64,000 bases of DNA from Argopecten irradians (taxonomy: Eukaryota > Mollusca > Bivalvia > Pectinida > Pectinidae). Below the pieces are notes generated by a model. It worked only from the letters and a program-made list of their open reading frames with translations, did not search any database and had not been told where the DNA came from. Location of the stretch: the NCBI RefSeq assembly GCF_041381155.1, contig NC_091134.1:37593338-37657337 (forward strand), written 5' to 3'. The first letter of the stretch is position 1, and each line of letters starts with the position of its first letter. Both the position numbers and the translations under genes were made by a program. Shown here in pieces: positions 7,694-50,200 of the stretch.

Positions 7694-7886
7694 ATGGAAA
7701 TTTTTACGTTATTTGGAATGATGTGTCTGATCACAATGACAGCTGCTGATCATTGTGTCATAAATAAATCACTAAAAAACAAAATGGTGGACATAGACAG
7801 TGTCGGAGACGGTGTCGTGGTGGCGTTATTGGGAAGTCAAATAATGATGACGTCATCAGATTGTGTGAACTCGTGTTGCCATACAG
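7694..7886 (+). CDS. Mucin gene exon 1: signal peptide and first half of MANSC domain
   Basis: The ATG at 7694 follows an acceptor ending at 7671. It begins MEIFTLFGMMCLITMTAADH, a hydrophobic signal peptide probably cleaved after the Ala pair. An upstream in-frame ATG at 7643 lies before the acceptor and would not be in the mRNA. The exon goes on to DCVNSCCHT, the adjacent-Cys motif of MANSC domains (compare the CVRACC motif in HAI-1/SPINT1). The donor is ACAG|GTAAAT at 7887, phase 1. Confidence 0.72.
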
Positions 7887-10800
7887 GTAAATGATAGATT
7901 ATACAGCATCAACATTTATCACTGATTAGCGGTAAAGGTATGAAATCTTTATCCGAAAGTTAATACCTGCTTGCTTATTTTCACTTCAGTGAGTTTTATT
8001 TCCGAAAAGGATAAACTTTGACTAACGAATTTTTTCGAAATAATCAAGGTCTTTAAGTACTTATAAAATAATCAAAGAATACAATGGCTTTGTACATGAT
8101 AGCAATATAGAAAACGGTAACGAAACCGACTTTGCGGTCAGTATTACGGCTATGTAAATAAATGTAAACTTTTTTATTGGAGTGAAAATGTTGCAGTAGT
8201 GCAATTTTGTTTATGTACAACGAATACATATTTTTGACCATAACATAATCTCTAAATCTACGGCACATTTATACTTAAGTCCTTTACTTTTTGAAACATA
8301 TAGTTAAAAATGATTATGTATGTCTTTATTGTTTCAGTTGACTGTAATGTAGCTGTGTTCGACAGCGGAAACGACAGTAATACCAACTGCCATATGTATA
8401 AATGTGAGGAATGCAAGCTAAAGAAACAAAGTAATTTTACAACATATTACATCAGCGATGAGCCTAAAACTACATCTCATAGTACAAGTGATACAACACA
8501 AAAATCATCAACATTATCATCGTCATCATTATCATCAACATCCACATCTGCTTCACCAGAGTTTGAAACAATTGTGTTAAATAGCCCTAACGATACAATA
8601 ACAACGCAAGATGGTGTTCCTGAAATGGATAATTCTGTAAAAGGAAATATACAGGAATCGGAAATAGATATTCCGTTAGTGATTCCAGATTTTGAATCTA
8701 AATTAGACGATTCTGAAATGATAAAGCCCGGATCGGCTGACAAGCCTACACCGACAGGTCCATCTAATGCTAATACCGACATATCACCCATAGTGCCCGG
8801 ATCTAAAACAAGTGCTGGACCGTCAGAGATACCAGGTACAAAACCTAGTGATAGCAATTCAAACCCGTCAACTCAAACTGCTAGTGATTCTTCCTCTGTT
8901 CAAACAAACGCGGACACGAGTTCAAGTTCAGAGAACACTCAGTCTGATAAACCATCAACGGCACAAGGGGACAGTTCTATTGACTCTAACACTGACAATA
9001 GTTCATCTGACACAGCCCCTCCTTCATCACAGACAGATTCGTCTAGTAGAAACCCATCAACTGTATCAAACAGGGATTCATCTGTAACAGAGACTGACTC
9101 AAGTACAGACACAGTAGGTACATCGGGAACAGGAGCAACAGATGCATCCCAGGGAAATACTGACTCAAAATCAGATACTACAGAACCGAATAATGAATCA
9201 TCGGTTCCTTCAGGTGGTGTACAGGTGGATTCAACGCAAACCAACTCAGCAACAGATGCAGCTGCTGGCTCAACAGCGGCGGACACTGCTCCGAATTCAG
9301 ACACAAAGCAACCTACTGATTCAACACAAATAGACACCCCATCAGGTAGTCAAACTGACGAGTCAACATCTAAAGCAACATCCGACACTAGTGGACACCC
9401 ACCAAAACCTTCGCCAGAAAGCGTGTCTGATGATTCGGGTGCATCTGTTGTAACAGGTAACTCAGACAAACCACCAAGTGGCTCTGTGGCCCCAGACAGT
9501 TCAAATACAGCACAAGGAGGCGCTGTAGCCCCAGGTAACTCAGACAAACCACCAAGTGGCTCTGTGGCCCCAGACAGTTCAAATACAGCACAAGGAGGCG
9601 CTGTAGCCCCAGAAGCCCCAGATAGTTCAAATACACCACCAGGTGGCGCTGTGACATCTGATAATGACGCGGGAAACGTTAAACCACCAGTATCACCGAC
9701 AGATAAATCCCCGAAAGTGACGTCGAATCCTGTAACGTCTCCAGACCAGTCACCTGTTGCGGATGTACCCGATGGCAATCCTTCTACTAGTGTAACGGAA
9801 AGTTCAACGGACCTTTCTGACAGTCAGTCCCTGACAGGTGATAGTAGCTCAGAAGAAACAGATACACAACAAGGTGAGTTCTCAATTCACAATGACTTGT
9901 TCAAGGTTTAAGGCTTATTTATTCACTCTGACACACAAAAGTGTGTTACAAGAGGTCACATATTTATAATACATACATGATATATGGCGTACAGTAATCA
10001 AAATATCAGAATTCTTTAAGCAATGCATAAATGTACAATTGCAAAATTAACAAGAGCATTAAATGGGTAACGAATAAGGTCGATTTGTTTGGTAACATTT
10101 GTTAGAAACAAGAACATCTCTCAGAGAAGGTTTTTATAGGCTTGACATGTTACCTGATTTCTTTCGTCATCAGCACTACACAATGAAATACTTTTAAATC
10201 AGAGATTTAGATATAATACTGCTTATCCATATACTATCTATATCTCTGCTTTAATGAACTTCTCAGAATGTGTGCATTTTGAAATTAGCAAATTCAGGAA
10301 TTGGCGTAACGATATTTTAATCTTTGAAGATTGATAAGCGAACATAAACTCCCCTAAGCAGGTTCGTCATTGAAATCTGAGGAGCACTCGCTTCTGAAAA
10401 TCGTCATAATATCAATTTTTATATAATTTCCCATTTACAATTGGAAATTTTTCAAATTTCTAGATGATTGAGTTTACGTTGTGTATAGTAACATCGGTAA
10501 TACTATAATATACATATTATAGTTATATACTAAATCTAACATGTATTGCATATGCGATATACCATTTTATGAACAATTTGCTAAATTCAAATTATAAATA
10601 TTTATATAAGGAAAGACTTAACGATTCCATTGCTTACACCATTTGCTAAGCACTATCCATTTGACTCCGGTAACAAGTAGAACCTAAATGAAACATTTTT
10701 CTCTATCATGCCAAGTCTCTATCAAGTCGAGGTGAAGTTTTAATGTTTGAGCATTAAAAACACTTTACAAAACACATTGAGCACATTTATCACTCACAAC

Positions 10801-13800
10801 ACTACTTTTCATTTTATATAAACATAGGCATTAAAACAACACCAAAAACAGCATCGAGACGACCTGACACACCAAAAGCAATCACAAAGAAACAAACAAC
10901 CCCAAAACAAACAACTGCAAAAACAACAACACCTAAACCAACAACGCCTAAACCAACAACACCAAAACCCACAACTCCAAAACCAACAACATCAAAACCA
11001 ACAAGTCCTAAACCAACACCAAAACCAACAACACCTTTGGCAACAAAACCAAAATCAACATCTCCTAAGCCAACAACACCAAAATTAACAACTCCTAAGC
11101 AGACAACTCCAAATCCAACAAAACAAAAACCAACAACCCCAAAACCGACAACACCAAACCCGACAACTCCTAAACCAACAACTCCCAAACCAACAACACC
11201 AAAACCAACAACTCCTAAAGCAACAACACCAAAACCAACTTCTCCTAAGCCAACAACACCAAAACCAACATCTCCTAAGCCAACAACACCAAAACCAACA
11301 ACTCCTAAGCCAACAACACCAAAACCCACAACTCCCAAACCAACAACACCAAAACCAACAACTCCTAAAGCAACAACACCAAAACCAACAACTCCTAAAG
11401 CAACAACACCAAAACCAACATCTCCTAAGCCAACAACACCGAAATTAACAACTCCTAAGCAGACAACTCCTAAACCAACAACACAAAAACAAACAACCAC
11501 AAAACCGACAACGCCAAAACCAACAACTCCAAAACCAACAACACAAAAACCAACAACTCCTAAACCAACAACTCCCAAACCAACAACAACAAAACCAACA
11601 ACTCCCAATGCAACAACACCTAAACCAATTACTTCTAAACCAACAACTCCAAAGCCTACAACTTCTAAACCGACAACGCCAAAACCAACAACACCAAAGC
11701 AAACAACACCTAAACCAATTACTTCTAAACCAACAACTCCAAAGCCTACAACTTCTAAACCGACAACGCCAAAACCAACAGCTCCTAAGCCAACAATCCC
11801 AAAGCCTACAACTCCTAAACCAACAACACCAAAACCAACAACACTAAAACCAACAACACCAAAGCCAACAACTTCTAAACCATCAACTTCTAAACCAACA
11901 ACACCAAAGCCTACAACACCAAAGCCAACAACACCAAAACCAACAACTCTTAAACCAACAACTTCTAAACCAACAACACCAAAGCCTACAACACCTAAAC
12001 CATTAACGCCAAAACTAACCACAGCAAAGCCTTCAACTACAAAACTAACACAATCAAATCCACGCACAACAAAACCAACACGAGCTATTGAATTGACAAC
12101 TACTTGGGGATCTAATCCTAAACAACCAAAGACACCAAAACCAACGCCTTCACAAGAGACTACAGCAAAACATGCAACTCCATCAGCATCAACAACAAAG
12201 CCAGATGTTCCAAAGTCATCAACGCCAACACGTAAAACCCCACAGCCAACCACGCCAATAGTTACGCAACCATCAAAAGTACATACACTTTTCCCCGAAA
12301 CAACACCAAAACTACCAAACAAACCAACAACAAAAACGCACACTCTTTTTCCCGAATCAACACCTAAAATCACAAACGAACCAATTATGAAAGTGGATAC
12401 TGAAGCACCTACGGCAGTACATACACTTTTCCCCGAAACAACACCAAAACGACCAAACAAACCAACAACAAAGACGCATACTCTTTTTCCCGAATCATCA
12501 CCTAAAATCACAAACGAACCAATCACGAAAGTGGATACTGAAGCACCCACGGCAGTACATACACTTTTCCCCCAAACATCCCATGCTTCTACTATCAAAC
12601 CCACAACAGAATTACATGTCCACTTCTCAGAAACAGCAGGTACCACAAATATCGAATCAAGCACAGTCCCACAGATCGACCTAGAAAAAGGTAATGTGAT
12701 ATATCTCTCCTCACGTAACTGTTAATCGTATACACGTAATTTTGTATTCTAAATGAATCATTTTTGAATGCAATATGTGTCCATTTATTGGGTATCATGT
12801 AAAAGTGGAAAGGGATACAAAGATATTTCTTTTAGAATCACATTGAACGAAATTCATAATAGCATAACTATTCTTGCTATCACAGACGTCAAGTGCTGAG
12901 TATTCAAAACAATATTGCATTATATATGACTCAAAATTGAATACAAGAATAGAAGAAATTACGTACTCACCATATAACATATTGCCACTCACATACTAAC
13001 TGTTCTGAATTTGCATATAACATTGTTATCTGCCCTTGTATTTGTTGATTATGACGTCATGAGTTTTCAAACGTAACTTCATATTTTTCAGAGAAAATGA
13101 TGTAAATTTCTATCATAAAATGATAACGTTACATTGGCTAATAACAATGCTATGTGTGGGATCCAACTCATCATTGATTTGTGACCGCTCAGTGATCTCA
13201 GTTCAAAGAAAAGCTCTATCCCTCTTTTTGATGATTTGTACAGTGTATTTTATCATCGAAAAATCGTTATGCTTAAGAATTCACATCTTGAGGTATTACT
13301 CTCGTTGAAAAGTATACGGGAATTTTTTTAGAGAAATGATCTATTTGGTGGCCATTTAAAAATATTTTTCTTCACTTTGAGTAGAGCCGAATATTCAGTT
13401 CAAATAAATATCTTTTAGTAGCAATATATCAAAAACAATCATACATATATATGTTTTTCCTCTGTTGTCTTCTATGGTATGAGCCCCTATTTCCAAAATT
13501 CTATATCATAACAAAATTTTAATAAGGAAAATTTTGATATCTCAGGAATGTACATACCTAAGACTTTTTCTGCATGGTTGGTTTAATTTTGAATTATGAT
13601 ACTAGAAAACCTTAAATCACAAATAGAAGTAATATAGTCTCATATATAGGCCTATATAATGTTTCTTGAGATTTATCAAATGCTGTGATGTTGCATGATG
13701 AGATGATTTTAACTGATGTTTATTTTTTTCTGATAACACTGTGCAACACACAATTATTTTAACTAGCCCATACATGATATCACTTATTACCATCATTAAT

Positions 13801-16800
13801 TGTATTTGTCATTAATATTTACAAATGAAAGCATAATGTATTTTGAGATATTTTATGAAAAATTCATAAATAATCTCTTGAATTTTCTTTGAAAACACAA
13901 ACAGATCCAAAACTATAAATCTAAAAAAAACAGAGGACAAATAAAATCACAGTGACACCTTTTCAGCATGGATAATATATAAACAGTATAAAGAATTTGA
14001 GATGTGAGGCAACATATCCCTAAATCTCAAAATACATTATACAAATCCGAAGGTGAAGAGAATGGGGTATATGACAAGGCTGTTTAAATATTCCAGAAAT
14101 ACAAACAATGGCTACAAGTGAATCTTCCAACGAACTCCCAACACAAATACCAACAGTACGAAACCAAACAATACGTAAAACATCAACAAGAAAACCTGCT
14201 ATGTTCACATCTGAACGGCATGACCTCACAACTAAACTCAAGATGCCTAATACATCGAAACCAACAAAAATCAAGCCTTCTACCTCCAAGTCAACAGTTA
14301 TAACCTCTCTGCCTAAACCTACAACTATCAAACCACGTTCGTCAAAACCTACCACAGCTAAATTATCTTCGCCTAAACCTACAACAATAAAGCCTACTTC
14401 ACCTAAACCTACAACACAACCCACTTCGCCTAAACTTACAACTATAAAACCGACAACTTTTAAACCCACAACAAAAAAACCAACTCCACCTAAACCTACA
14501 GCAACAAAGCCCACTTCACCTAAACCTACAACACAACCCACTTCACCTAAACCTGCAACAACAAAACCCACTTCACAAAAACCTATAAAAAAGCCCACTT
14601 CACCTAAACCAATAACAACCAAGTCCTCTTTACCTAAACCTACAACAACAAAGCCCACTTCAACTAAACCTACAACAAAGCCCACTTCACCTATACCTAC
14701 AACTTTAAAACCGACAACACCTCAACCTACAACAACAAAGCCCACTTCACCTAAACCTACAACTATAAAACCTTCTTCACGTAAACCTACAACTATAAAA
14801 CCTACTTCACCTAAACCTACAACTATAAAACCTACTTCACCTAAACCTACAACTATAAAACCTACTTCACCTAAACCTACAACTTTAAAACCGACAACAT
14901 CTAAACCTACAACTAACAAACCCACTTCACCTAAACTTACAACAATGAAACCCACTTCACCTACACCAACAACTATTAAATCGATAACAACTAAACCTAC
15001 AACAATAAAACCCACTTTACCTAAAGCTACAATAATAAAATCCACTTCACCTGAAACTATAACAGCAAAGCACACTATAGGTAAACCTATAACAGCAAAA
15101 CCCACTTCACCTAAACCTACAACAATAAAACCAACTTCACCTAAAGCTACAACAATAAAACCAACTACACCTAAAGCTACAACAATAGAATTTACTTCGC
15201 CTAAACCTGCAACAATAAAATCCACTTCACCTAAACCTATAACGGCAAAACCCACTTCAGGTAAACCTAAACAACAAAGCCTACTTCACCTAAAACATAC
15301 AGCAATAAAATCCACTTCACCTGAACCTACAACAGCAAAACCCACTTCACTTAAACCTGCAACTATAAAACCCACTTCTCCTAAACCTACAACGACACAA
15401 AAATCGAAAAACGTACATACAACAAATCAAAAACTCACTACAGTACCAACACAAATACCTACATCAGACAAAATTGCAACTCCAAAACCCACCACAGTAC
15501 CTACACCAACACAAAAACCTACATCAGACAAACCTACAACTCCAAAAATCACTACAGTACCTACATCAACACAAAAACATAACTCAGATAAACCTATAAC
15601 TCCAAAAGTCAACACAGTACCTACGCCAACACAAAAATCTAAATTAGACAATAGTGCAACTCCAAAAGTCAATACAGTGCCCACACCAACACCAAAACCT
15701 ACACCAAACAAAACTGCAACTAAAAAGATCACTACAGTACCCATTCGAACACCAAAACCTACATCAGACAATACTACAACTCCAAAAGTCACTACAGTAC
15801 CTACACCGAAATCTAAATTCAGCAATTCCACAACTCCAAAAGTCACTACAACACCTACCCCAACACAAAAATCTAAATCAGGCAATACAACAACATCAAA
15901 AGTCACTACAGTACCCGCACCAACACCAAAACCTACACCAAACAAAACAACAACTCAAAATGTCACTACAATACCCACATCAACACAAAAATCTAAATTA
16001 GACAAAACTACAACTGCAAAACTTACTACAGTATCCACACCAACAATAAAAGCTAACTCGGACAATATTACAATTCCAAAAATCACTTCAGTACCCACGC
16101 CAACACAAAAATCTAAATCACACAATACTACCAATCTAAACCTCACTACTGTACCCACACCAAGACCACAACCTAAATCAGACAATACTACAACTCCAAA
16201 AGCCACTACGGTACCCACACCAACACAAAACTCTAAATCAGACTTTACTACAACATCAAAAGTCACTACAGTACCCGTACTAACACCAAAACCTACACCA
16301 GACAATGCTACAACTTCAAAAGTCACGACGGTACCCACACCAACACAGAAATCTGAAGCAGACAATACTTTAACTCATAAAATCACTACAGAACCAACAC
16401 CAACACAAAGATCTAACTCAGACAATATTACAACTCCAAAAGTCACTACGGTACCAACACCGACGCAGAAATCTAAACCAGACAATACTACAACTCCAAA
16501 AGTCACTACGGTACCCACACCAACACAGAAATCTAAATCAGGCAATACTTTTACTCATAAAATCACTACAGAACCAACACCAACACAAAGACCTAACTCA
16601 GACAATACTACAACTCCAAAAGTCACTACGGTACCAACACCGACACAGAAATCTAAACCAGGCAATACTTTTACTCATAAAATCACTACAGAACCAACAT
16701 CAACACAAAGACCTAACTCAGACAATACTACAACTCCAAAAGTCACTACGGTACCAACACCGACACAGAAATCTAAACCAGACAATACTACAACTCCAAA

Positions 16801-19800
16801 AGTCACTACGGTACCAACACCGACACAGAAATCTAAACCAGACAATACTACAACTCCAAAAGTCACTGCAGTACCAACACCAACACAAAGATCTAACTCA
16901 GACAATACTACAACTCCAAAAGTCACTACGGTACCAATACCGACACAGAAATCTAAACCAGACAATACTACATCTCCAAAAGTCACTACGGTACCAACAC
17001 CGACACAGAAATCTAAACCGGACAATACTACAACTCCAAAAGTCACTACGGTACCAACACCGACACAGAAATCTAAATCAGGCAATACTACAACTCCAAA
17101 AGTCACGACGGTACCAACACCAACACAAAGATCTAACTCAGACAATATTACAACTCCAAAAGTCACTACGGTACCATCACCGACACAGAAATCTAAATCA
17201 GGCAATACTTTTACTCATAAAGTCACTACAGAACCAACACCAACACAAAGACCTAAGTCAGACAATACTACATCTCCAAAAGTCACGACGATACCAACAC
17301 CGACACAGAAATCTAAATCAGGCAATACTTTTACTCATAAAGTCACTACCGTACCCACACCAACACAAAAATCTAAACCAGACAATACTACAACTCCAAA
17401 AGCCACTACGGTACCCACAACAACACAAAAATCTAAATCAGACATTACTACAACATCAAAAATCACTACAGTACACGTACTAACACCAAAATCTACACCA
17501 GACAATGCTACAACTCCAAAAGTCACTACGGTACAAACACCGACACAGAAATCTAAATCAGGCAATACTTTTACTCATAAAGTGACTACAGAACCAACAC
17601 CAACACAAAAATCTAAACCAGACAATACTACAACTCCAAAAGTCACTACCGTACCCATATCAACACAAAAATCTAAACCAGACAATACTACATCTCCAAA
17701 AGTCACTAGTGAACCAACACCAACTCAAAAATCTCAATCAGACAATGCTACAGTTTTTGAGATGTCACCGGGCGCAGAAGGATCGACAACGGCTCAGTTT
17801 ATATTGGAAACAGAAAAAACGGAATCTCCTTTGACGAAAAACCCGATTTCTGAAACACTGGCTTCATCGAAAGAGCCTACAACAGTACAGTTCACTCTAC
17901 AGACAGATCAAACAACGACAGCTACAACTAAAGAACGTTCATCAAAAACTTGGCTTGCATCAGAAAAGAAATCCACCGAACAGTTTACTTTTGAAACTGA
18001 TCGAACAAGAGCGCAATCAACACACGCTCCCACATCTAAGACAGCGCCACCGGCTGATCATTCCACAACAGTGCAATTCATATTAGAAACCGACCAAGCG
18101 GCTGCACCACAAACCAAGAAAATATCTACAATAGCACCACCTGCCACAAAAACACCACCAACAGTAGAATTTACTTTTGAAACTGAAAGAACATCGCATC
18201 AACCAGAGAAGGCATCGACGGCTCATTTTACACTAGAAACAGATCGAACAGAAATTCCGTCACCGAAAGCAAACAAACCCCCAACGGTACCATTTACTCT
18301 TGAATCAGATCGCACAGAAATTCCTTCACAGAAAACAAACAAACCCACCACGGTTCAATTTACTCTTGAAACAGATCGCACAGAAATCCCGACCACGAAA
18401 GCAAATAAACCCACAACGGTTCAATTTACTCTTAAAACAGATCACACAGAAATTCCGTCAATGAAAGCAGACAAACCCACAACGGTTCAATTTACTCTTG
18501 AAACAGATCGCACAGAAATTCCGTCAATGAAAGCAAACAAACCCACGACGGCTCAATTTACTCTTGAAACAGATCGAACAGAAATTTCATCGCCGAAAGC
18601 AAAGAAACCCACGACGGTTCAATTTACCCTTGAAACAGATCGGACTGACAAACCGTCGGAAAAGTCTGCGACATCAACTCCGCAGACGACAACAGAAGAG
18701 TTTACACTGAAAACAGAAAATACAGACCATCCTGTAACTCAACATCCAGATGGTCTTACCTCGGCACCACATGGGCAAATGACAACTGCACATTTCACTC
18801 TTCGTGCAGGTACAGGGCTAACAGATCCCCAGACTAAAAAAGAATCGTCGACAATGCTTCCACAATCTGAAACAAGTGAGAATGAATTAACAACGCAAGC
18901 GTTTACCGTTAAAACTGGTCAAACAGCCAATACAGACACACCTAAGGATCAGACAGGTGTTCAAACGTTTCCACCTTTTCAGCTGACATCAGCGCCAGCA
19001 ATCGTTTCCCCTGCACAAACAACAAAGCAGGATACCACAACTCCACCTCATACAACGGAACACAACCATACAACACTTCCACCTCAACACACAACACCAG
19101 CAGGATACCACAACTCCACCTCATACAACGGAACACCACCATACAACACTTCCACCTCAACACACAACACCACCAAAAATACATTCAACACCTTCACATA
19201 GACACACGAAACCTCGACAGAAACAAACTTCACCACACCAAGAGGTTACATCAACCCCATCAATCGGTTCCCCTGTAAAAACAACAATGTCGGGTACCAA
19301 AACTCCACCTCATACAACGGAGCACCAACATACAACACTTCCACACGAACATACAACTCAACACCACCAGCACACAACTCCTTCACACCAACATTCAACA
19401 GCGTCCCAAGAACACACAACAACTGTACACCATCACACAACGAACCAGAAAACTACAACAACTAGCACTAAAGACAGAAAAATCCAACCACAATCTGCCC
19501 CATCTACCTCCCTCTTACACGACCACACAACACAAAAATCAGGAGAAACATTAGCACAAGCCATACCTTCTACTACTATTCCTTATGAGGAAATCGATCT
19601 AAAAGAAGGTAATATTTATTTGGCTATTTATATAGCAAATTATCCAAAATACTTATGCTTTCATTTGACATTAATTTACCATGTTTCGTAAAAACATGGT
19701 TGTCTTTTTATCGTTGATTATACATAGGAACAGGAATTTATTCAGTTTTCTTTGATTATTACATGGGACATAATATCTAAAATTTTTACAATGTGTGTCG

Positions 19801-21111
19801 TTCTGACTGCTGGAGATTCTATTGAAAATTATTGCGATTTTGCCTTAATAATTAATAACACCAATTAAGCATTAATATCACTTTTTATTTCATCGGAAAT
19901 TGTGTTTGCGAGCTGTCTAATGGATTCTCACATAAGTTTGCAAACACCAGACTACTTGATAGGATCAAATACGTTTAAATGTACGAATTGTTGATTTTCC
20001 AAATCAATACACAACGTCGATGTCTCTATCGTGACGTCACGATAACATCGGCTTTTGCGCCAATTTAGTTTTTTATTCATAGAGGTTCGGATTGCTGTAA
20101 TCATTATAACAAAACAATGCAACGTCTTTTATTACATTTATATATACACTGCGTATTATAACGGCGTACTGCTCCTCTTGTTTATTTTTTCATTTAAATT
20201 TATTGATTTTTGTTTTAATTGTCACTGCACAATGTTGGTCGGGTTTTCAGTTTCATGTTTCAAAATGCGTACAAGAGAAGAAAATGCAACAAACCATACA
20301 GGAATTTTGATGTTGCATTTTGATTTGGTAAACACGGATCCTAAGTTATCTTACATGAAGTGAAATCGTACGTTAAGACGTAATATTTATCATAAAATTC
20401 ATTTTTACCTTGATGTTTTTAAAAATGTTATAAAAATGTTACTTTTAAGAATCTGCTTCCTTGGTTCATACGGTGTTCAAACATTTTCCGGTGAAACAAA
20501 AGTCATAAAGCGGTTTTAGACGGTTTTTTTGACATTAGGAACCCAATCCAGATAATTTGCTTTAACAGATGTCAAACATTCACAATTTTCCTGAATGTTT
20601 ATTTTACACCCATGGAACAACTCTCATATAACCCTAAAACTACCGAGACATTGTTTGGATCTGCCACTGAACTCATATTCATTTCGTTATGACCAAAAAC
20701 AGTCCTGCGGCGTCAGTATATAGTAAATACAGTACATGTATAATTATGTTGTCATAGCAACATATTTACAACGCACTTTCATATTATTTTTATTCTCTTC
20801 ATTAAACATAGATAGCTTTTCACATTGTTGATTTGCTAACCAAAATACCTTTTGTAGAAAGTATAGACCAATAATATGTAATTATTAAAAAAAACACACT
20901 ACTTTTTGTTATTTCAGACCTGCCCGAAAACTACAACGCTCCATTTGTCAACCATCCTACAATGGTAGCCACGGCCTTGATTGCAGCTTTGTCGTTCGGA
21001 GTCATCTTCTTTTTTGCTGTTACAGCAATAGTGGGGAAGAGGTGTTACGATGGCTGGCAGAGACGCCATTATTCTCGAGTTGATTATCTAATCAATGGAA
21101 TATATAATTAG
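7694..21111 (+). CDS. Giant MANSC-domain transmembrane mucin (five coding exons; frame broken in exon 4)
   Basis: Coding exons: 7694-7886, 8338-9873, 10828-12690, 14097-19608 and 20918-21111, all GT-AG with every intron in phase 1. The predicted product is a type I membrane protein: signal peptide (about residues 1-18), MANSC domain (about 21-103, Cys-rich), roughly 2,900 residues of Ser/Thr/Pro-rich tandem repeats, one transmembrane helix and a tail of about 20 residues. This order (MANSC, mucin stalk, one helix, short tail) is that of vertebrate MANSC1, but the stalk is many times longer. The exons sum to 9298 nt, one more than a multiple of three. The excess comes from a 73-bp tandem duplication (19031-19176) that shifts the frame to a TAG at 19199. 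Without that extra unit the chain would be in frame (about 3,074 residues). Dense O-glycosylation and a surface or mucus role are inference. A second, inverted copy starts at the right end of the window. Confidence 0.72.
8338..9873 (+). CDS. Mucin gene exon 2: second half of MANSC domain and Ser/Asp-rich region
   Basis: Acceptor GTTTCAG ends at 8337. The spliced codon is Val, followed by DCNVAVFD and NCHMYKCEEC. This completes the MANSC cysteine pattern (Cys 57, 61, 62, 67, 82, 87 and 90 of the precursor) with the typical CN-x-A-x-F/L core. From about residue 105 the sequence is Ser/Thr/Asp/Pro/Gly-rich with no Cys. Near its 3' end are two adjacent 78-bp units (9456-9533, 9534-9611) that look identical. 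The donor AACAAG|GTGAG is at 9874, phase 1. The exon is 1536 nt, a multiple of three. Confidence 0.72.
9456..9611 (+). repeat. Two 78-bp (26-residue) tandem units in exon 2
   Basis: Both units start GGTAACTCAGACAAACC and encode NSDKPPSGSVAPDSS plus NTAQGGAVAPG. I found no difference between them. A third partial copy follows (DSSNTPPGGAV) up to about 9655. The identity points to very recent duplication or homogenisation. Confidence 0.75.
9874..10827 (+). other. Mucin gene intron between exons 2 and 3
   Basis: AT-rich, with no coding signal or clear repeat. It is bounded by GTGAGT and an AACATAG acceptor. Confidence 0.6.
10828..12690 (+). CDS. Mucin gene exon 3: KPTTP array and HTLFPE repeats
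   Basis: The acceptor AACATAG ends at 10827 and the frame entering at phase 1 stays open to the donor at 12691 (AAAAAG|GTAATG). About 250 copies' worth of sequence is built from a Lys-Pro-Thr-Thr-Pro pentad with Ser, Leu, Gln or Ala variants (10890-12030). A less regular Thr/Pro/Lys segment follows, then 46-residue units containing VHTLFPETTPK and THTLFPESTPK. The exon ends IDLEKG, close to the IDLKEG ending of exon 4. It is 1863 nt, divisible by three. The coding strand is almost devoid of G over the array. A Thr-Pro-Lys stalk of this sort is a classic O-glycosylated, extended mucin-like structure. Confidence 0.72.
10890..12030 (+). repeat. KPTTP pentapeptide coding minisatellite
   Basis: Units are 15 nt (CCAACAACACCAAAA and AACTCCTAAA variants), with longer patterns of 30-60 bp caused by alternation of the ACACCAAAA and ACTCCTAAA variants. 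One longer duplicated block is visible at about 11626-11686 and 11709-11769. Most substitutions keep Thr, Pro or Lys. Confidence 0.8.
12278..12600 (+). repeat. 138-bp (46-residue) HTLFPE repeats
   Basis: ACATACACTTTTCCCC occurs at 12281, 12419 and 12557, a period of exactly 138 bp. Each full unit holds two HTLFPE boxes, PNKPTT and KVDTEAPTAV. Two units are complete and the third is partial. The hydrophobic LFP core is unusual inside an otherwise hydrophilic stalk. Confidence 0.75.
12691..14096 (+). other. Mucin gene intron between exons 3 and 4
   Basis: AT-rich. A short open frame at 13120-13308 has a hydrophobic start but no splice context that keeps phase with the gene, so it was not used. 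It ends with acceptor TTCCAG at 14096. Confidence 0.55.
14097..19608 (+). CDS. Mucin gene exon 4: 5.5-kb repeat exon, frameshifted near its 3' end
   Basis: The phase-1 frame enters at 14097 and runs to TAG at 19199-19201. It passes through four zones: TSPKPTTIKP repeats (about 14240-15400), about 39 units of 20 residues around TTVPTPTQKSK (15421-17760), QFTLETDRTE repeats (17780-18960), then His/Thr-rich HTTEHQHTTLPHEHTT sequence. A 73-bp near-perfect tandem duplication (19031-19103 and 19104-19176) shifts the frame by one. The original frame is open again from before 19205 to the donor AAAGAAG|GTAATA at 19609. Both sides of the lesion keep the same repeat chemistry, so the break is recent or is a sequence error. 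The exon is 5512 nt, that is 5439 (divisible by three) plus 73. Confidence 0.7.
14240..15400 (+). repeat. TSPKPTTIKP coding repeat zone
   Basis: Imperfect units of about 27-30 nt encode Lys-Pro-Thr-Thr-Ile/Thr-Lys-Pro-Thr-Ser-Pro. The region around 14820-14880 has consecutive identical 30-bp units. It is distinct from, but chemically like, the KPTTP array of exon 3. Confidence 0.75.
15421..17760 (+). repeat. 60-bp (20-residue) coding repeat array, about 39 units
   Basis: The period is exactly 60 nt for most of 2.3 kb, with one 54-nt unit near 15781. The consensus residues are TTTPKVTTVPTPTQ, then KSKSDN. Variants THKITTEPTPTQR and KSKSGN recur in a pattern, giving higher-order units of 120-180 bp between about 16320 and 17640. 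The 5' units (15421-16300) are more diverged than the central ones. Confidence 0.85.
17780..18960 (+). repeat. QFTLETDRTE coding repeats
   Basis: About 14 copies of a TT-V/A-QFTLETDRTE motif. The copies are widely spaced at first (near 17797, 17890, 17980, 18070 and 18170). From about 18220 to 18650 they form a tight array of 66-bp units (22 residues), ending EIPS, x-KANKPTT. Later copies are diverged (EEFTLKTENT, AHFTLRAGTG, QAFTVKTGQT). The alternating hydrophobic pattern suggests a short beta strand. Confidence 0.75.
19031..19176 (+). repeat. 73-bp tandem duplication causing a frameshift
   Basis: GATACCACAACTCCACC starts at 19031 and again at 19104, and the two 73-bp units differ at about one position. 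Because 73 is not a multiple of three, the second unit is read in another frame (AGYHNSTSYNG instead of DTTTPPHTTEH). TAG follows at 19199. The inverted copy in the right arm lacks this duplication. Confidence 0.85.
19609..20917 (+). other. Mucin gene intron between exons 4 and 5
   Basis: Non-coding and repeated almost completely, inverted, at 61108-62425. A short open frame at 20055-20363 is disrupted differently in the other arm and is treated as chance. It ends with acceptor ATTTCAG at 20917. Confidence 0.6.
20918..21111 (+). CDS. Mucin gene exon 5: transmembrane helix and cytoplasmic tail
   Basis: Entering at phase 1, the exon encodes DLPENYNAPFVNHP, a hydrophobic stretch of about 23 residues (MVATALIAALSFGVIFFFAV and onward), then basic GKRCYDGWQRRHYSRVDY and an end at TAG 21109-21111. 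A juxtamembrane Cys and the Arg/Lys stop-transfer residues place the tail in the cytosol. The exon is present in both arms of the inverted repeat with the same splice sites. Confidence 0.75.
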
Positions 21112-21410
21112 GATATCCTGACAAATATCATTATTTGATTATCGTCCTGGTTAATTATCTGTTGTCTAACTTATGGTCTCTATAATTAGGATGTACTAGT
21201 AAATTATTATTTATTTAACTAACGATATTCATAACAGGAAAAACCTTTTAATTATCAGTTGTCTAATTTATGGTTTATACAATAAGGATGTACTGGTAAA
21301 TTAATATTTATTTAATTAACGATATTCATAACAGGAAAAACCTGTTTATTTATTGTCAGTTATCTCACTAATGGTCTCTTTAATTACGATGTACTCTGAT
21401 GTATATCATT
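21098..21410 (+). repeat. About 100-bp tandem repeats starting at the mucin stop codon
   Basis: The phrase ATAATTAGGATGTACTAGTAAAT recurs with variations near 21102, 21181, 21281 and 21383, each set about 80-100 bp from the next. GATATTCATAACAGGAAAAACC lies between the later ones. The first, most diverged copy covers the last codons and the TAG of exon 5. The mirror copy is at about 60610-60925. Confidence 0.65.
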
Positions 21411-23360
21411 TATTCTGATAATGGTATTTAAGCACTAAACTATTTTCCTACAGCATCTATGGTCTATATACATATGTAGATGCCAGAGCTTTGCAGACAA
21501 TTTTCATAATACGCTAGTGCGCATTATGAGATGATTGTCTGCAAAGCTCTGGCATCTATATAGACCATCAATACCATATGGAGAATCAGATAGTTTAAGC
21601 TTATACTTAGATTATCAGCACACTTCACTTTAAGATCTCTGCATTTATATTGTTTAAGCTAGACCAGGAAAACCGTTTATCAACGACGATTTAATCTACA
21701 AGATGGAACAGCCATTTTGACGGCGATCAGTTGAAGTCATCACGTCATCATTAGTGACATCATAATGGTCACGATTTTGGTGTCAGTGTTATACCGTCAT
21801 ATAATTCACTTTGCCTTGGTTAGTTTATATAGTAGAAGTGACAAGCAAATGTAAATATAAACAAATGGAAATCCTAATGTAGCAAAAATGTTTATCTTAA
21901 CATATCCGAATAATTGTCTGTATCGATGTATGTATATCCAGTAACACTTTTGTCATGTTATAACATGTGACGATAGTTATGGCAAAGTATAGTCAGTTTC
22001 AGTCTTATGTTTTGGAATTCGATTGAATTTTCAGTTCAACAACACCTGAAAAAGAACCAGACAATACTTTATTTATTGTTTTATTTACTTTTTTAAAAGT
22101 GGGTACTGGTGCGTTGTACGATTACTTACACATGTTGTACTTTGAAAAATCGTATCTTATCGTAAATTGGGATACATTTTTGTGCTGGCATATTTGGCGC
22201 TTTTTATCATCAAAAAGGGGAAGTTTTCCAAATTAAAGCGCTTTAATTATCAAAATAGCGTCAAAGGATTTGCACTGCATCTAAACAACGAATCAGAAAG
22301 CTACCCACTACTGGATCTTTTACTGAGAATGTAATAGGCATTATAGTGGTTTTTTTTTAAAGTTCATTCCAATCAGTTAACTAAAGCAAAAACCATATCC
22401 GAAATTATACGGATTTAAGATACCGTTTAATATATTTAATGTATTTATCGATAGTGATCAGTTTGTGCATTTAACATCCATGTAAATATGAAACTATTTA
22501 TTTTTATGCCCATAATTTGTTTTATTGATCTTAATCCATCTATGAAACAATTTGTCAAGATAGATTAAAATCTAATTTGTCAGAATCACTTTTTCACACA
22601 CAACGATTGATGTTGATTGTTGAAATCATCGCTTTAATGCCGTAGGTATAAATGGGGAAAATCAAACATGTTAGACATGTTTTGAATTTCGTTTTTAATG
22701 TTCCTGCTTCATTCGTGCTTTTTCCGCCCATTTGCGTCACATGTTGTACTAGGAAGAAAAAGCTGACCTCTTTGTTTATTGAAGTATTTTGTGTACCATA
22801 ATGTTAGTTTGGATCATGATCTTAGTTATTACTTAACTTTATGTAATTTACTGTAAACAACTCAATTCTAAGTGTTGCAATAAATTGTTTTCTTATTCGG
22901 TAGTCACTTAGAAATCGCGAAGACATGTCAAGTATTTTTAGCAGTAGAATCACAAGACGCAGAAACGCGAAATTGATTTTCCTCGAAAAAATATTTTAGC
23001 ATGAAACCGAGAAAATAGGTTTGTTTACAGTACTTTTGCGTGCGCTTAATTTCCGCGAATTTCACGATCGAATATTTTTTCCGCGAATTGATATCTTCAA
23101 CGATTCTTTTACAATTAAATTTGAAGGATCTTCCATTCCATTTTAAATCTGCGCAACTTAATCTCCGAGAAAATGTTTTGAAACGGAAATCGTGAAATTT
23201 AGTAACCGCGAAGAAAAGTTGGTAACCAGTATCACTACTTTATTCTGAATATCATCTCTATGTTATATAGATGTATATATGTAATAATCTAATGCACGGA
23301 ACCCTATAATTATAGATCTACAGTTGGTATTAATATTGTCCATAATAAAGTTTTAAAAAG
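21112..23360 (+). other. Probable 3' untranslated region and flank of the mucin gene
   Basis: No coding signal. AATAAA hexamers occur near 22879 and 23344 and could serve for polyadenylation, though neither is proven. A CGCGAA-rich imperfect foldback lies at about 22915-23220 and resembles other non-autonomous elements in the window. All of this is mirrored in the right arm. Confidence 0.4.
21459..21568. repeat. 110-bp near-perfect hairpin in the mucin 3' flank (left arm)
   Basis: ATGGTCTATATA...TAGATGCCAGAGCTTTGC is followed, after a short middle that is itself partly palindromic (CATAATACGC / GCGCATTATG), by the exact inverted sequence ending TATAGACCAT. The stem includes at least 25 consecutive pairs. 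It is either a foldback MITE or a structured 3' UTR element. Confidence 0.75.
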
Positions 23361-26300
23361 AGTTGAATTCGGTTAGATCCTATTGTAAGTGTAAGTCAGT
23401 GTAAATATATAATGGTTGTTCACATATTTTAGTTCTGGTTCATGATCACTTACTAATTATGTTTATTTCATGCCCAATTATGAAATTTAATTTTAAAGTC
23501 ATCATTTCAAGTATGATTTATATTAATGTATCCTTACCTGTCCCTATCTAATAATTTTTCATATTATATGATTTGACAATGCGCAATTTGTTCCTGTGAA
23601 TTAGTTTCAATGAGAAAGTACTGCTGAATAGAATTGAGATACATATTATATTATTGATTTAATTGACAATTAGAAATATTATGTCAGGTGATTTTTAATT
23701 GTAATATTGACAATCGAAATCACTATCTGCAGATTATTTTCATGTATAAACAGGAACATTAAATGGTTTATGTAAGATTACGCTGTATCGTTATTTTTTT
23801 ATTTCTTATTCAGGTATGACCTACTGATAGTCGTTTGGGCATTATACAGATAGCAAATGGAACGGCAGTTCACTGATAATCTTATTCGTTATATTTTTTG
23901 TTTATTTATCATTAAATATTTTATAAGCACATTATTAAATAATAAATCGTTCACGTATCATCATCTCATTAATACATTGTCATTCCGTTGTTATCTTAAA
24001 ATGCAATACATACGATGAAATGTAAAATAAATTTCATAGCATTTCAAAGATGTGTATTATGTGCAATAAAAATTAAAAACATACCTATTATCACCATATC
24101 CAAACTATTAAGATGCGATTGATAAATTACTGTACATAAACTTATTTTCCTGTGCAATTATTTCAAGTATTTCGTGAACGATAAAAACCAACGAAATCAC
24201 AGTTAGAGTTAGAATCATTTAAATTAAGATAGTAAGTGAGACAACTCATGATGTTTTCATCCAGACGGTTGATTTATAACCGATGCATATATCATAAGAC
24301 ATTGTGTTTAAGATTTATCTATTGGGGAGTTTTACGTTTAGACCAATATTTGTTTGTATACAAAATATGTAAAAATGACTTACTTGATTGTCAACAAAGG
24401 AAACTTTGACAGGCGATGCATAACAATATTATTGATAAAACAAATACAAAGAATATTGAACGAGAGGAAACTTTTGGGTATGTGAGACTGCCGCCTTAAA
24501 CTGCCATTTAGTTTCAGCGAAAATAGATTGGGTTACACTACGGTATGTGAATGTGAAGAGAGAAAAAAACAATATCGGTTGGATAAATCAAGGAAATTTT
24601 AATTCGTAAATATTTATTTTGTTTGGCACATGTAGAACAATGCTTGGATTTGATTTAGTCGTAAATATGTAAATTACACGTAGAAATGATCTGTTTATGA
24701 AAAGGACAAGGATTGCCTTAAGTCATTGTCGCTCAATGACATAAGTATTTTTAAACCCAACATCAAAATACCATGCAACAAACTATAAACAAAAGTTAAT
24801 GATACGTATCAAGCAACACTGTTAAAAAACACTTAATGATAGAAGATATATATATAGGGCAAAAAATATAAACAATACTAATTGGTTCATTTCAAGAAAA
24901 CTGTTCTGATACAATGTATATCATAGATGCACTGAGGAGTGAAGCGAATAGAAGTAAGCGATATTCAGAATGGAGGTATCCTTTATAACCCTTAATGTAA
25001 ATAAATGGAAAAATAAAACAGTGCTTATAGTGAATGCAGAATATTTTTAAACAATGGTTAATGGTAATTATAGAACACACATATATAAAATAGAATAGCT
25101 ACAAACCAAGCAATCAATACGTACTGAGGCCAATCCGATTGTCGACTTGTGTATTATCGTAATAACTACAAAATGTAGTTTGAATACTATTCTACAGCCA
25201 ACAAAACGACATATATATTCTGGTCATAAACACAACTCCATTCCCAGTTTGTGTTAAATCATGAATATTAATTTCATGAAAAAGCCAATCTTACAAATTA
25301 ATGAAAAATATTGATGTATCATATTTACTCCGTTTAAAAAGTTGTACGCATGACAGAAAAAATACGATTTTTATATGCATCTTATGACCGAACTTATTAA
25401 GGGGCGTTCAAATGAGATTTTTAATCTCATCAAATAGTAGATATACAAAAAAAAGTCGTATGCATAAAAAAAATCACTTTCAACGAGTGGGCAGCTGACT
25501 TAATGTTATAACCTCTATTTAAAGCTAAATATATCCACACGGCCAGATTCGATTAGGTACATATATAGCTTGAATATTTTTTCTTTGTATAATACAGATT
25601 TATCTCCCCTTTTCGAGTTGGTATCAATTGTGTCATCGTTACTTTGTGAGCAAAAATGAAGTCGTTTGCTCTGAAAAATATGACGTTAGACCTAAATGAA
25701 CATGACGTAATAATCAATCAATATTTATCCGCAAGGACAGACAACTCGGTAATATGCAAATATTATAATTGCCGCGCGGGGACAAAATTGGAAAGATAAA
25801 ATACGTTCAATACAATGAAAAGCATACTAACAAATTATCCAATCCCATCGTAAACGCATTTGCGAATTTCACCTCACGAAATGTGTCTCTCGTTAACTCT
25901 TTTAGTTACCTATTAAATCTATTTGGCCGAAAACAAATATGAACACTTGGAACAAATATAAGATAGGCAGCTGTGATCATTGATAAAATATATCAATACA
26001 AATATAACATTACTACATGATTTTACGAATCAATTAAGCAAGGTAGGAAAATAGTTGTGTTTTTAAGCATACCATTGATGATGAGATTCCGCCTTTTCTT
26101 TAAGGAATAAAGTATTAGAACAAAAACTAGCTAAATTAATTTTGCTATATAGTCTGGTAGCCAGATATGTAACCCCGGCCCCTCTGCCTCTACACACACA
26201 TTTTGACTTTCGACTGGCTTTTTTTCTGAACCTATTTGACCCATAAATTCAGGAAACATTGGTTTGGGGTTTGTACGCACGTCCTACCTTGGAACACTTT

Positions 26301-26407
26301 GAAAAACACACCTTATCACTAAAATGGTCTGATAACATTTAGACAAATAAAGAGTATGTATTGTATATACAAATGAAATAAACACAGGTACACTGTTATT
26401 TGTTCCA
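23361..26407. other. Non-coding part of the left arm
   Basis: AT-rich intergenic sequence. I see no gene. It is duplicated inverted at 55814-58700. The stretch 24620-24940 aligns poorly with the other arm, an indel-rich patch. Confidence 0.5.
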
Positions 26408-44200: not shown

Positions 44201-47200
44201 ATTGTTCAGAAGGTGATGATAAGCGCTGTATTCATAGTAATCTAATAACTTTTAACGTTTCAACACAATCAATCTCCTTTTACCAACCTGTTCTAAAAAA
44301 ATATCAAAAGCCATTTCGGAAAGTTTAGTGGAATCCATGAAAGCAATATATGTAATGATCAAAATTTATCATAAGCTATACTTTTATTTATGATATGATT
44401 AACAGTCAAACCTTCCATAGCGACCACCTCTGTATAAAGACCATAATCTTAATAAGACCATTTACTCATGCTACCTAAAGTCACTTTTAACATAATATGT
44501 CTTGTGTATAAAATCCACTAAGCTATCAAGCTTTATAAACCGGTTTGGCTGTACTTGTAGCCATTGAAAATTTACGTTGTTACGTCATGAAATAAAATGT
44601 TTGACATGGCGAAAATGATGGCAACAAATGGTTGTTTCTGGAACTAAAAGGCAAGGTTTGATGGTATTTACTAAGATAAAATCCTAAATTGTCTTATATC
44701 TACTATGATTAAGTACAAGACAACAAATCTATGAAGTACATTTTGTTTGCAAACTTAAACCAAATTTCTTTCATACCTCGATGAAGTTAAAAAATAGTGA
44801 CATCAATGCTTAAATAAGCATACATTGTATATGTAGTTTGTAATACACATATTATCTTGATGGTGAATGAAAATGACTACGTTGTAATCATAAATTATTT
44901 TTAAACGTGTTCGTTATAAACGTATTGTACTGAATAGTGTTTTCTGTTAGATTTTTAAGGTATCTGAAAAAAATCTTATCTTCATCCTATATTTACTCCA
45001 TTTTTATGTTACTTAAAATGTTCAGGCAACACAAGACAACGACATAGACAGGTACGCGACCTCAAGCGTTAATGTATATGTCATTGATACCAACAACCAC
45101 AGACCAAAATTCAGCCAATCATATCAGGCCGTCATTGATGAACACGCACGTGCTGGGTCATACGTCATCCAGGTTCAGGCTCAGGATGGTGACGAGGTTT
45201 GTTGTAAAATAATGATGTTTCATTTCAAATGACATAGTGAAACAGTTTACACAACTAGTGAAACAAATATTTTCATTTTTTTTAAAAATATTATACTATC
45301 AATATTCTGCTTGGTGTTGTTAGGTTTAGTCTTTGGGGGAGTATTGTTAAAAAAACAGAAATGTTAGCCTTTTTGGTTCCCAAGTACATCATACTCCTCT
45401 TTTAGCATAAACAAGCTAAATGTATGTGTAATGATAACAGTGATAAAGCAAAAAACCTCAATTGATTTGTATTTTTATATATGCTATTTGTTTTACAGGG
45501 TGTATTTGGTGAAATAAGTTATGCGGTAACCAACTCTGATGGACTTTTTACGATTGACAATAAAACTGGGGTTATCACGGTAGAGAACTCTACAGGATTA
45601 GACAGGGAGACATTCCCTAATATTACTTTAGAGGTAAGTATTTACGATATAAAGAGAACGTCCTCAAAAGGAATACGAGGTAAAACTCAATGTAATGTGA
45701 AAATTCAAACAACAACAACAAAAAAAAAAAGAAAAAAAAAAGGATTTCTTTTATCGGAATTTGACTTAGAATAAGATTTTATAGGTCATATATTACAGAA
45801 ATATATTACAATTTTGTATGGAAATTTGCTCCAGAGATTGTTTTTTTCTAATCACTTTTACCCATCAGACAACTCAGATTGAATTAGATATGTCGATAAT
45901 AAGTTATATCCCTGATGCTCTTATTGCACTTTTGTCCATATATTTGTAGATACTAGACAATTTTTATTCATTTTAATTTTTTATTGGGTTTATTTGTCCC
46001 AATGCATGTATTAGTTCATTAAAATTCCGAGCCTTGTCTCTGATTTTTTGTCGTAGGTACAAGCCATAGACGTTGAAGCCAATGAGGTCGGTGACACCAC
46101 TACTGTTGTAATTGACCTGAATGACGTGAATGATCACACGCCTATGTTTATGAAAAATTATACCTTCCACATCAGTAGTACGGATACTGCACAGGTAGGT
46201 GGTGGCTTAAATCTGGAACTACATTCATAGCTTTTACGTATTTTTTTTAAATCCAGAAAATATTTTAAAAATGTCACTGGGACATTTTTACATTGAAGTC
46301 TGATAAGATTGGGACCTTGGGGTGAGTCTTTTAGAATATGAACAACTGCCCCCACACAAGGGATTGGATTTGTATCAATCGTACATTTTATAAATCATAT
46401 ATCTGAACCATTATTTTTTCATCCTTTTTTGTCATCTTAAATTACAAAAGAGTCCAAGATTGAATAATATATAATATTCAACCGGAAATCTGTTATTTCC
46501 ATAAAACATATTACGCTTTTCATTGTTTCGTGACAACCACAGCATGACCTATACATTGGCATTGTGTGTGCTTTAAATTAATTTAATAATTTTATGCTGA
46601 CATAAATACATGTACATCTATTAGGGATAAATCTATTTATCTATATTTTTACATTTTTTATTTTCAAGAGATATTATCAACGATTGAACTTGTCAACAAT
46701 CGCTTGTGACTGATTGAAGATAATCCGGGTTTCATCGCATTTAGCGTTCTTTATTAATCGTTATCTCATGTGGTCGACATGCAATACAATTAATATTACT
46801 CTGGTTTTAATTCTTGAAAATAATACAATGCTTATTACACGGGTATTGTTTATCCTTTACATAGGTAAGTGCGGAAGACGAGGATATTGGTGGAAATGGT
46901 CGCGTTTCATATGAATTATCACTGGTGCCACCATCTAGTGATGTTAAGATCAACCACAACAATGGGACCATTTATTTCACTGACATTCACATTGACGAAT
47001 TGACTTTTTTTGTTACCGCTTGTGATAACCCCGAAATCTTAAATAGTCGGTAAGTATAGAATACGTTCTACGTTACCTCTTGCTAAACTTGATACGGGGA
47101 ATAGCCAGTAAGTGTCGTATGCTTTGCTTGACGACATCGTGCTGTAAGATGAGGTATATTATATTCCCGAAGGTATTGGATACGGAGTTTTAAACACTGT

Positions 47201-50200
47201 TTCAATCACATGGATATTCAGAAAAGCAATGACAAAAGCAGATTTTGGCGTGAAAGCTGTGTTTAATATTTGATCCGACAATAAAAAATTTATTTATTTT
47301 TATGAACAAAACAAGGAAAACAATATAAAGTATAAAAGAAACGGATCAGAAGTATGTTTAAGAGAGAACAATACATCTAAAACTATCGTATCTAAAACTA
47401 TCGAATATTCACTGTCTCTGCTAAGCATACTGTTTATTTGTTATTCTGTTTTTCGTCCATCCATAGGCGATGTTCTTTCACTCGTGTCCAAGCTTTTCTC
47501 AATGGAACTATCGCAGGGTCAATGGTTAAGAATATGTCGGTGGCAGAGAACTCCCCCCCAGATACGGTAGTCGGTAGTATTGATGTAAGTATATCTCAAA
47601 TATAATATCGGGAATTTCCGTAGTGTTTGGAAAATGAATCGTTTCATCATTGTTATTCATCTTGAAACATTATAGTAAGTCATTTTAGCTTTTCATTGCT
47701 ATATATCAATGTCTTTGGTCATAAGTATTTGTGTAGAGCCTTGAAGGGACGGACGCAACAGCTGTATTTTATGTCAAAGTCTCCGGCTTTATTTCTGAAG
47801 TAAATTATAATACAGTAAAGCCTGTCTTAACAACTACATCTGTATAACGACCACTTGCCTGATACGACCACTTTTCTGGGGCCCCAAATGACCAAGTTTA
47901 ACGCAATGCAACCTGTGTATAAAGGCCAATTAGCTATACAATAATTTTCTATTGTCCTTTGAGTTGTCTTTATAGACAGGTTTAATCGTATACGTGGTAT
48001 ACATATCCGGTATATCTTCCACATTCCATTCTGATAATTCCCCTTTATCCGAATACTTTCATGGACAAACTTCTTTTTCAAAAATGTTAAAAAATTGTTA
48101 GAGAATAATAACCCTTTAACTAATGAGATTTAACAGTCAATCGTCTGTACACAACAGAAGACCTTTCTATATGTTAAAAGACTGTGTTCCTATAAAACAT
48201 AGACTTCCTCGTTTAAATTCCAGATCAATGGTGCTACGTTCAGCATTTTAGAACAAGACGTGCCATTCGGAATAGGAAAGTAAGTTAGACAGTGGTCAAG
48301 GTTTTCTACAAATCTGTGAGGAATATATTATAAAAAATGTTTAATTGTAACAAATGGAATGATTGAAGGTGAGTTAAATTTACTTAGAGACGGAAAGGTT
48401 GTGAATCAATCCTTTTAAACAAGTAAAATGTAAAAACAAAATCTCCGAACCTGGTATAAAATATTTGGGCGCTTTAAAAGAGTAAGCATCATTTACTCAA
48501 GGCAAATTGATACTAAATTAATAAATATATGCAAATATATGCAGTCGGAGGCATGCGGTCAAGGAAGAAAAATGTTTTCAGAGTGAAATTAAGATGGTAA
48601 TATTTCATCATGTTCAACCATCTGGGTCGAGTTTTACAGAATTTTCAAATGTCATTTTTGCATTCACATATAAAAGATGTTATATTCTAGTGGTATTAAT
48701 TTCAGAGACAAGTTCGTTAGAACGACTACCAGCACGTTAGATAGGGAGAAGACATCCCACTACACATTTACAGTCACCGTCACAGGGAAGGTAAATATTA
48801 CACTGAGTTTATAAGGATGACGTCAGGGTGTCATTCACCTACCACATGATACCATTTAAGGTTTGTGCGGGATTATTTCATTAGTTATTCCAGCGGGAAG
48901 ATTGCAAAACGTAACGTTCCATCACCAATGGAGATAACAGTATCGCACAAACGTTATTGGGTATCACATGGTACATGGATTAGTACCATATTATTGTTAC
49001 AAAAAGTTTGTCTATCCTAAACCAGGTTACCATCCCAAGAAATGACCTCCTAGTTTTTTGTTTCTGTTTTTAACATTATGCCAATGTTTCTGGTTTCCAA
49101 ATATATGCAAACATTCAAGCCCATTTGTTTAAAAAAAGTCGATTAGATATAAAGTTTGGCATTTCACATATATATATATATTTAACGTTTAGATGTTTCA
49201 GTGAAAATAGAAAGTAAAACTTGCGTTATTATTCTGTCTCCGAGCATCATTTACATAACACTAATGATCCACGGTTTTGTCTGCAGGTTCTAATTAATAT
49301 CACCGTGAATGTAGAAGTACTGGACGTAAACGACAATCCGCCATTATTTGATGATCCAGAGTACAAGTTTGGCATCCCTTCGGACAACTCTCCACTAGGA
49401 ATTGTACACGTAAGGTTTCTTCATTTTATTTTGTCGATATTGGATTACACAAAGAAGTTTTCGACATTTTCAATTTTCAGAATGAAAAGAAAAATGTCAA
49501 GATTTTTTAAAAATATTGCAATTAATGGAATTATTATCAAAATTTATGTAATAACCACTGTATATAATATATCATGTAATTACAATGTTATGGATATATA
49601 TCAGTTAGAATGTAATATGAAATACTTATAGAGTAAGAATAAATAATTTTCCTTGTAAATCTTCCCTTCAGTATCCATTATTACATGTTAAGATTTCCAT
49701 CATTCCCAATTGATATGATCCGATACACGTGACCAGTTCCGCCTCGGTCAAGATCTCTTTTTCCAGTTTGTATCAAATGATATCCACCAGCACAAAAGTC
49801 CATAATTGTATATCAATTGCTTCTAATAAATTAAAGGAACATTTTTTTTATTTTATAGGCAACAGATGCGGACTTGGGTGAAAATTCCAATATTTCCTAC
49901 AGCTTCCAACCGTTATTGTAAGAAAACTTTCATATATACAAAAAAATCAACATTAAACAATTGGCGTATTATTTACAAAGTCGTTTTAATTAAGTAAACG
50001 CATTATTTAATCGTATAGCGCCTTTATCTTCTATATTCATATATACAGAATAGCTTGGCTCACGTCATGTATAAGACTTTTGCTAGATAAAGAGAATGTT
50101 GGTAAGATGTCAATGTGTATTCAATATCAAAATAATATCAATGTCGACAAAAATATCAATATCAAAGTTATTATCAATGTCTATATTGTATATCAATGAC

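Follow-up and report, generated by a model that had tools for sequence, protein, structure and literature searches.

Vertebrate MANSC1 consists of a signal peptide, an N-terminal MANSC domain, a serine/threonine-rich stalk, a helix and a short tail, and the human protein has about 430 residues. HAI-1 (SPINT1), whose MANSC domain is structurally known, also carries Kunitz inhibitor domains. The hallmark of the MANSC domain is a seven-cysteine motif close to the N-terminus, as described in two papers (PMC3258366; PMC11206317). In one open-licence library, no title on the MANSC domain with mucin concerned a mollusc. In the same library, nothing was found for C11orf24 with MANSC, and the only match by title for scallop with MANSC was a mite revision.

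We analyzed a 64,000-nucleotide stretch of the genome of the bay scallop Argopecten irradians (NC_091134.1, positions 37,593,338 to 37,657,337 of the forward strand), hereafter the window. The locus under study is the bay-scallop gene for a MANSC1-like type I membrane protein, whose short form is already in databases (Table 1). Two large repeat-rich candidate exons, exons 3 and 4, lie inside the 11-kb intron that separates exons 2 and 5 of the public protein.

Table 1. Features of the MANSC1-like locus and of its second copy in the window
Feature	Position	Strand	Content and basis
Exon 1	7694-7886	+	Signal-peptide-like start (judged by eye) and first half of MANSC; donor CAG/GTAAAT, phase 1
Exon 2	8338-9873	+	Second half of MANSC and stalk of ~480 residues rich in S/T/D/P; donor AAG/GTGAGT, phase 1
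78-bp (26-aa) repeat	9454-9612	+	TRF, 100% match; two identical copies here, one in mucin-21-like
Exon 3 (candidate cassette)	10828-12690	+	621 T/P/K-rich codons; 15/30-bp PKPTT array and 138-bp repeats
Exon 4 (candidate cassette)	14097-19608	+	5,512 bp; 15/30-, 60- and 66-bp arrays, His-rich end
Extra ~73-bp unit, +1 shift and stop	19015-19201	+	TRF period 73 (19015-19172), arm alignment, frame check
Exon 5	20918-21111	+	Transmembrane helix and 24-residue tail; stop codon 21109-21111
Inverted second copy of 18340-26407	55814-64000	-	blastn and alignment; runs off the right edge of the window
189-bp His-rich array	62690-63354	-	TRF, 3.5 copies; sits in the second copy

A short form encoded by exons 1, 2 and 5

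GT/AG sites allow all five exons to be spliced together, and the four introns are all in phase 1. Exons 1, 2 and 5 alone form one open frame of 640 aa, whose product shows a signal peptide (by eye), a MANSC domain, a stalk, a single helix and a short tail, with a single hydropathy peak above 1.6, within residues 589-619. This order matches that of the A. irradians NCBI protein mucin-21-like (P0001), a product of 614 aa equal to exons 1, 2 and 5 minus one 26-residue unit. This protein begins identically to exon 1 and follows the exon 1-2 join for its first 463 residues; its C-terminal end is identical to the exon 5 product (hydropathy peak 2.64). A search with the N-terminal 110 residues (exons 1 and 2) scored 37 candidates, of which two passed; over these residues the A. 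irradians protein was 100% identical. The difference in copy number of the 78-bp repeat is probably a length polymorphism or an assembly difference.

We further compared the locus with a 603-aa protein of Mizuhopecten yessoensis that NCBI names MANSC domain-containing protein 1 (P0002) and that has the same domain order as the bay-scallop short form. Its first 110 residues are 62% identical to the Argopecten product. The two proteins diverge in the stalk but share every residue from FFFAVTAIVG, within the helix, to their C-termini. The residues at the join of exons 2 and 5 are the same (EETDTQQ/DLP), and the record does not contain the giant exons. A sequence-only reading of this DNA had proposed a protein several times larger than MANSC1 and of a composition that it knew from no described protein. 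Neither proposal is supported for the public form: NCBI lists this form as a protein of 614 aa from exons 1, 2 and 5, together with a 603-aa scallop orthologue that bears the name of the family. The single helix and short tail that it had placed at the end of the gene are indeed encoded by exon 5.

The assignment to the MANSC family was also upheld. The spliced N-terminus scored 39.9 bits against Pfam MANEC (PF07502; gathering cut-off 25.5), and the scores were 36.4 bits for mucin-21-like and 33.7 bits for the Mizuhopecten orthologue. A two-sequence profile matched the HAI-1 MANSC structure 2MSX with an E value of 9.6e-05. In this alignment Cys 57, 61, 62, 67, 82, 87 and 90 stand opposite HAI-1 cysteines and are kept in the Mizuhopecten orthologue; an eighth, Cys 21, falls outside the aligned stretch. 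The family call is right because the Pfam score and the 2MSX match with its seven facing cysteines agree, and together these matches rule out a chance resemblance. The structure model predicted from the two-sequence alignment reached a mean pLDDT of 35.7, with values of 34 or less in every ten-residue block of residues 1-100. Altogether, the exon structure of the short form is shown by comparison with the NCBI protein, and the domain, the helix and, as described below, the stop-free frames and the frameshift are likewise observed.

Repeat arrays and frame of exons 3 and 4

Exon 3 is an open frame bounded by AG/GT sites, in phase 1 at both ends. Exon 4 also has phase-1 ends, and about 1,700 of its codons are open before a stop (14097-19201). 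Both exons are missing from the mucin-21-like and Mizuhopecten records. The two long frames are rich in T, S, P and K. Serine, threonine and proline make up 62.6% of exon 3, 52.4% of exon 4 and 52.4% of the 2,898-residue joined model. The repeat types listed by the sequence-only reading were recovered by TRF as arrays of 78, 15/30, 138, 60 and 66 bp, its 15-bp repeat appearing as 15/30.

We then measured whether stops were rarer in these arrays than drift would leave them. The consensus of each array was mutated at the observed rate in 1,000 runs, with the units treated as independent; real repeat units are not independent, so the drift figures that follow are optimistic. The 30-bp array of exon 3 has no stop in 37 units in the reading frame, against a drift mean of 5.0 and zero stops in 6 of 1,000 runs; taken as 75 units of 15 bp, it would have accumulated 7.6 stops on average, and no run of 1,000 was free of them. 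No stop interrupts the 38 units of the 60-bp array of exon 4 (drift mean 9.7; zero in 1 of 1,000 runs), and the six stop-free units of the 66-bp array are uninformative (drift mean 0.9; zero in 389 of 1,000). In the shifted frames, stops as few as those observed occurred in 149 and 980 of 1,000 drift runs for the 30-bp array and in 22 and 830 for the 60-bp array. The 30-bp array is likewise free of stops in one frame of the minus strand.

When columns were shuffled among units, as few stops in the reading frame were obtained in 18 (30 bp), 10 (15-bp version), 6 (60 bp) and 1,000 (66 bp) of 1,000 shuffles. The shuffle does not single out the reading frame, presumably because the repeat units are related: for the 60-bp array, both shifted frames gave 0 of 1,000. 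In the 30-bp array (36 units), dN/dS was 0.55 in the reading frame and 1.1 and 1.45 in the shifted ones; in the 66-bp array (5 units), the reading frame again had the lowest ratio (0.44 vs 0.71 and 0.88). For the 60-bp array (37 units) the ratio was near neutral at 0.90 and higher than the 0.81 and 0.79 of the shifted frames, and therefore dN/dS does not support coding there. On these sequence statistics, the 30- and 60-bp arrays look coding, in that they bear the signature of being read in this frame; the 66-bp array says nothing. Exons 3 and 4 thus look as if they are translated, now or formerly, and no annotated protein searched contains them. In the 15/30-bp array of exon 4 (14311-15393), a short KPKQQSLLHLKHT stretch reads as the adjacent frame of that array would, which suggests a pair of compensating indels.

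The splice sites were ranked as percentiles among GT or AG sites, using approximate weights. On this approximate scale donors ranked at the 98.7th (exon 1), 99.9th (exon 2), 97.6th (exon 3) and 95.9th (exon 4) percentiles, and acceptors at the 97.0th (exon 2), 98.7th (exon 5), 91.3rd (exon 3) and 82.8th (exon 4). Within each site type, the sites of exons 3 and 4 score below those of exons 1, 2 and 5. This fits exons that are optional or disused, and it counts for either reading. Across the donor, 18 of 21 bases agree between exon 3 and exon 4 (85.7%, E 0.003), a hint of exon duplication, but the match is too short to rely on.

Towards its end exon 4 loses its frame near 19103 and runs into a stop codon at 19199-19201, because of an extra repeat unit of 73-bp period. 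3' of this unit, the His-rich sequence has no stop in the frame continuing into exon 5. When exons 1 to 5 are joined, the stop falls in exon 4 after residue 2,898 and before the helix, so a five-exon join open to the helix was rejected. Joining exons 1, 2, 4 and 5 meets the same stop at 19199-19201, after 2,277 residues; joining exons 1, 2, 3 and 5 gives a frame open to the helix, of 1,261 residues. The MANSC1-like outline of the sequence-only reading therefore stands for exons 1, 2 and 5 and fails for the five-exon frame. Likewise, of its roughly 2,900 Thr/Ser/Pro-rich residues the long frames and their composition are real, but exon 4, on which the giant stalk depends together with exon 3, does not share the frame of the helix.

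Because of the shift in exon 4 as sequenced, translation of any transcript that includes this exon would terminate short of the helix. In vertebrates, a stop far upstream of the last junction exposes a transcript to decay. By this rule, a transcript with exon 4 may be liable to decay.

An inverted second copy of the 3' part of the gene

The second copy covers the end of exon 4, the intron, exon 5 and downstream DNA. blastn aligned it in pieces of 763, 5,589 and 1,461 bp at 99.6, 97.9 and 98.9% identity, and small indels occur all along the alignment of the two inverted arms. At 19102 the arms differ by one block: the second copy is without the extra 73-bp unit, and its frame is broken at another point than that of the first. 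Its 189-bp array has a +1 shift of its own, a one-base difference near 63046, and the frame is open only to 63025. The 189-bp His-rich units of the sequence-only reading do exist, and part of the array is present in the first copy. A full array in the first copy was rejected, since the 189-bp array reported by TRF lies in the inverted second copy, outside 7694-21111.

The chances are about even that the inverted copy, and perhaps the frameshifts too, is an assembly artefact in which the other haplotype was joined in reverse; this question is separate from that of splicing. The identity of 97.9-99.6% is alike through exons, introns and flanks, with small indels throughout, and such identity is plausible between alleles of an outbred bivalve. 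However, the arms enclose about 29 kb of other sequence (26408-55813), including cadherin-type exons, and a real inverted duplication would look the same. The difference between the arms also exceeds the 0.60% heterozygosity given for another scallop, Amusium pleuronectes (PMC10225492). The accessible part of the draft bay-scallop genomes paper (PMC7090048) holds no heterozygosity figure for A. irradians.

Several other elements lie in the window. The cadherin-type exons lie on the + strand. One of them, at 45466-45771, scores 28.9 bits against Pfam Cadherin (cut-off 28.8). Also counted with them are 49218-49628, which contains a DVNDNPP motif, and 54477-55496, an acidic frame of 339 codons that may be a cytoplasmic tail; neither of these two has a Pfam match. 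At 542-1349, a FLYWCH zinc finger (27.9 bits, cut-off 23.6) is followed by a MULE transposase match below its cut-off (17.3 bits, cut-off 27.6), and this stretch is possibly the remains of a mobile element. An inverted repeat with 29-nt arms, 97% complementary and 32 nt apart, lies just beyond the gene end at 21473-21562 and recurs in the second copy at about 60463-60552 (by eye); it is possibly a small foldback element. A 97-bp tandem repeat sits shortly 3' of the stop codon in both copies (21146-21395 and 60672-60879). No RNA family matched in the window.

Optional exons and known membrane mucins

We propose, with moderate confidence, that exons 3 and 4 serve as optional cassettes by which a MANSC1-like gene can extend its mucin stalk. 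Our confidence was reduced a little, and that in the two rival accounts of splicing slightly raised, by the lack of frame specificity of the shuffle and by the dN/dS of the 60-bp array. All their ends are in phase 1, and inclusion or skipping therefore leaves the frame at the splice junctions unchanged. Exons 1, 2 and 5 would give a core product of ~614-640 residues, with a signal peptide, a MANSC domain, an S/T/D/P-rich stalk, a helix and a short Tyr-containing tail. Exons 3 and 4 would add a putatively O-glycosylated stalk: including exon 3 would bring the product to 1,261 residues, and including both to ~3,070, provided that exon 4 were in frame. Inclusion of exon 4 as sequenced would instead yield a secreted or degraded product. 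The stalk may act as both spacer and barrier, raising the MANSC domain above the epithelial surface. The cassette use, the glycosylation and the surface role are what we infer. More tentatively, the stalk may be switchable: the two phase-1 cassettes, with repeat numbers that differ among alleles, would set it at about 0.6, 1.3 or 3 thousand residues. Whether the longest form is tethered or released would then depend on frame changes in the last His-rich array. A giant tethered mucin is possible in other alleles.

A different account would have all five exons used constitutively, encoding a membrane-tethered MANSC mucin of giant size (~3,000 residues). The frameshift would then be an assembly error or an allele-specific one, and the NCBI model would have missed the two repetitive exons. 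The agreement of the five exons in phase 1 at their junctions speaks for it, as do the coding appearance of the arrays and the His-rich end of exon 4, which is open into the exon 5 frame as if the whole exon had once been open. Repetitive exons can escape gene predictors, and automatic gene models lose them easily. We nevertheless consider it unlikely, given that the join of exons 2 and 5 is common to the protein records of two species, that the His-rich array breaks the frame in both copies of the window, though not at the same point, and that no long form was found among annotated proteins in the length range searched. For the latter, a 1,999-residue query with its first 110 residues as region gave 26 candidates (~1,100-3,498 aa), none of which passed 0.001, and for an exon 4 query with its last 490 residues as region, the 7,990 candidates that shared the most words (~935-2,975 aa) were scored and none passed. 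These searches cover predicted proteins within those lengths and cannot show that a transcript is absent.

Exons 3 and 4 could also stand outside this transcript altogether, as the remains of former exons or as a nested intronic mucin gene no longer spliced to the MANSC exons. Their weaker acceptors and donors, the frameshift at the end of exon 4 in both copies and the near-neutral dN/dS of the 60-bp array speak for this. Yet phase 1 is kept at all four sites, 621 and about 1,700 codons are free of stops, and inspection of the translated frames by eye showed no other first exon bearing a signal peptide, which makes this explanation doubtful.

Should splicing include exons 3 and 4, as in the cassette model that we prefer, the choice of exons would set the distance of the MANSC domain from the cell, and the public record would miss most of the coding sequence of the gene. 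Otherwise, the locus illustrates how readily a string of open repeat frames can be mistaken for a single giant protein.

The scallop short form and vertebrate MANSC1 are alike in outline. The MANSC domain of HAI-1 (2MSX and 5H7V) matches the scallop N-terminus by profile, and Pfam found no Kunitz domain in mucin-21-like or in the Mizuhopecten protein. MUC1 is not known to carry a MANSC domain. In its arrangement, however, the scallop gene can be likened to the pair formed by MUC1 and its MUC1/Y isoform, the optional use of repeat exons being presumed in the scallop: MUC1 is described as a membrane mucin and MUC1/Y as an isoform without the entire tandem-repeat region (PMC8400696).
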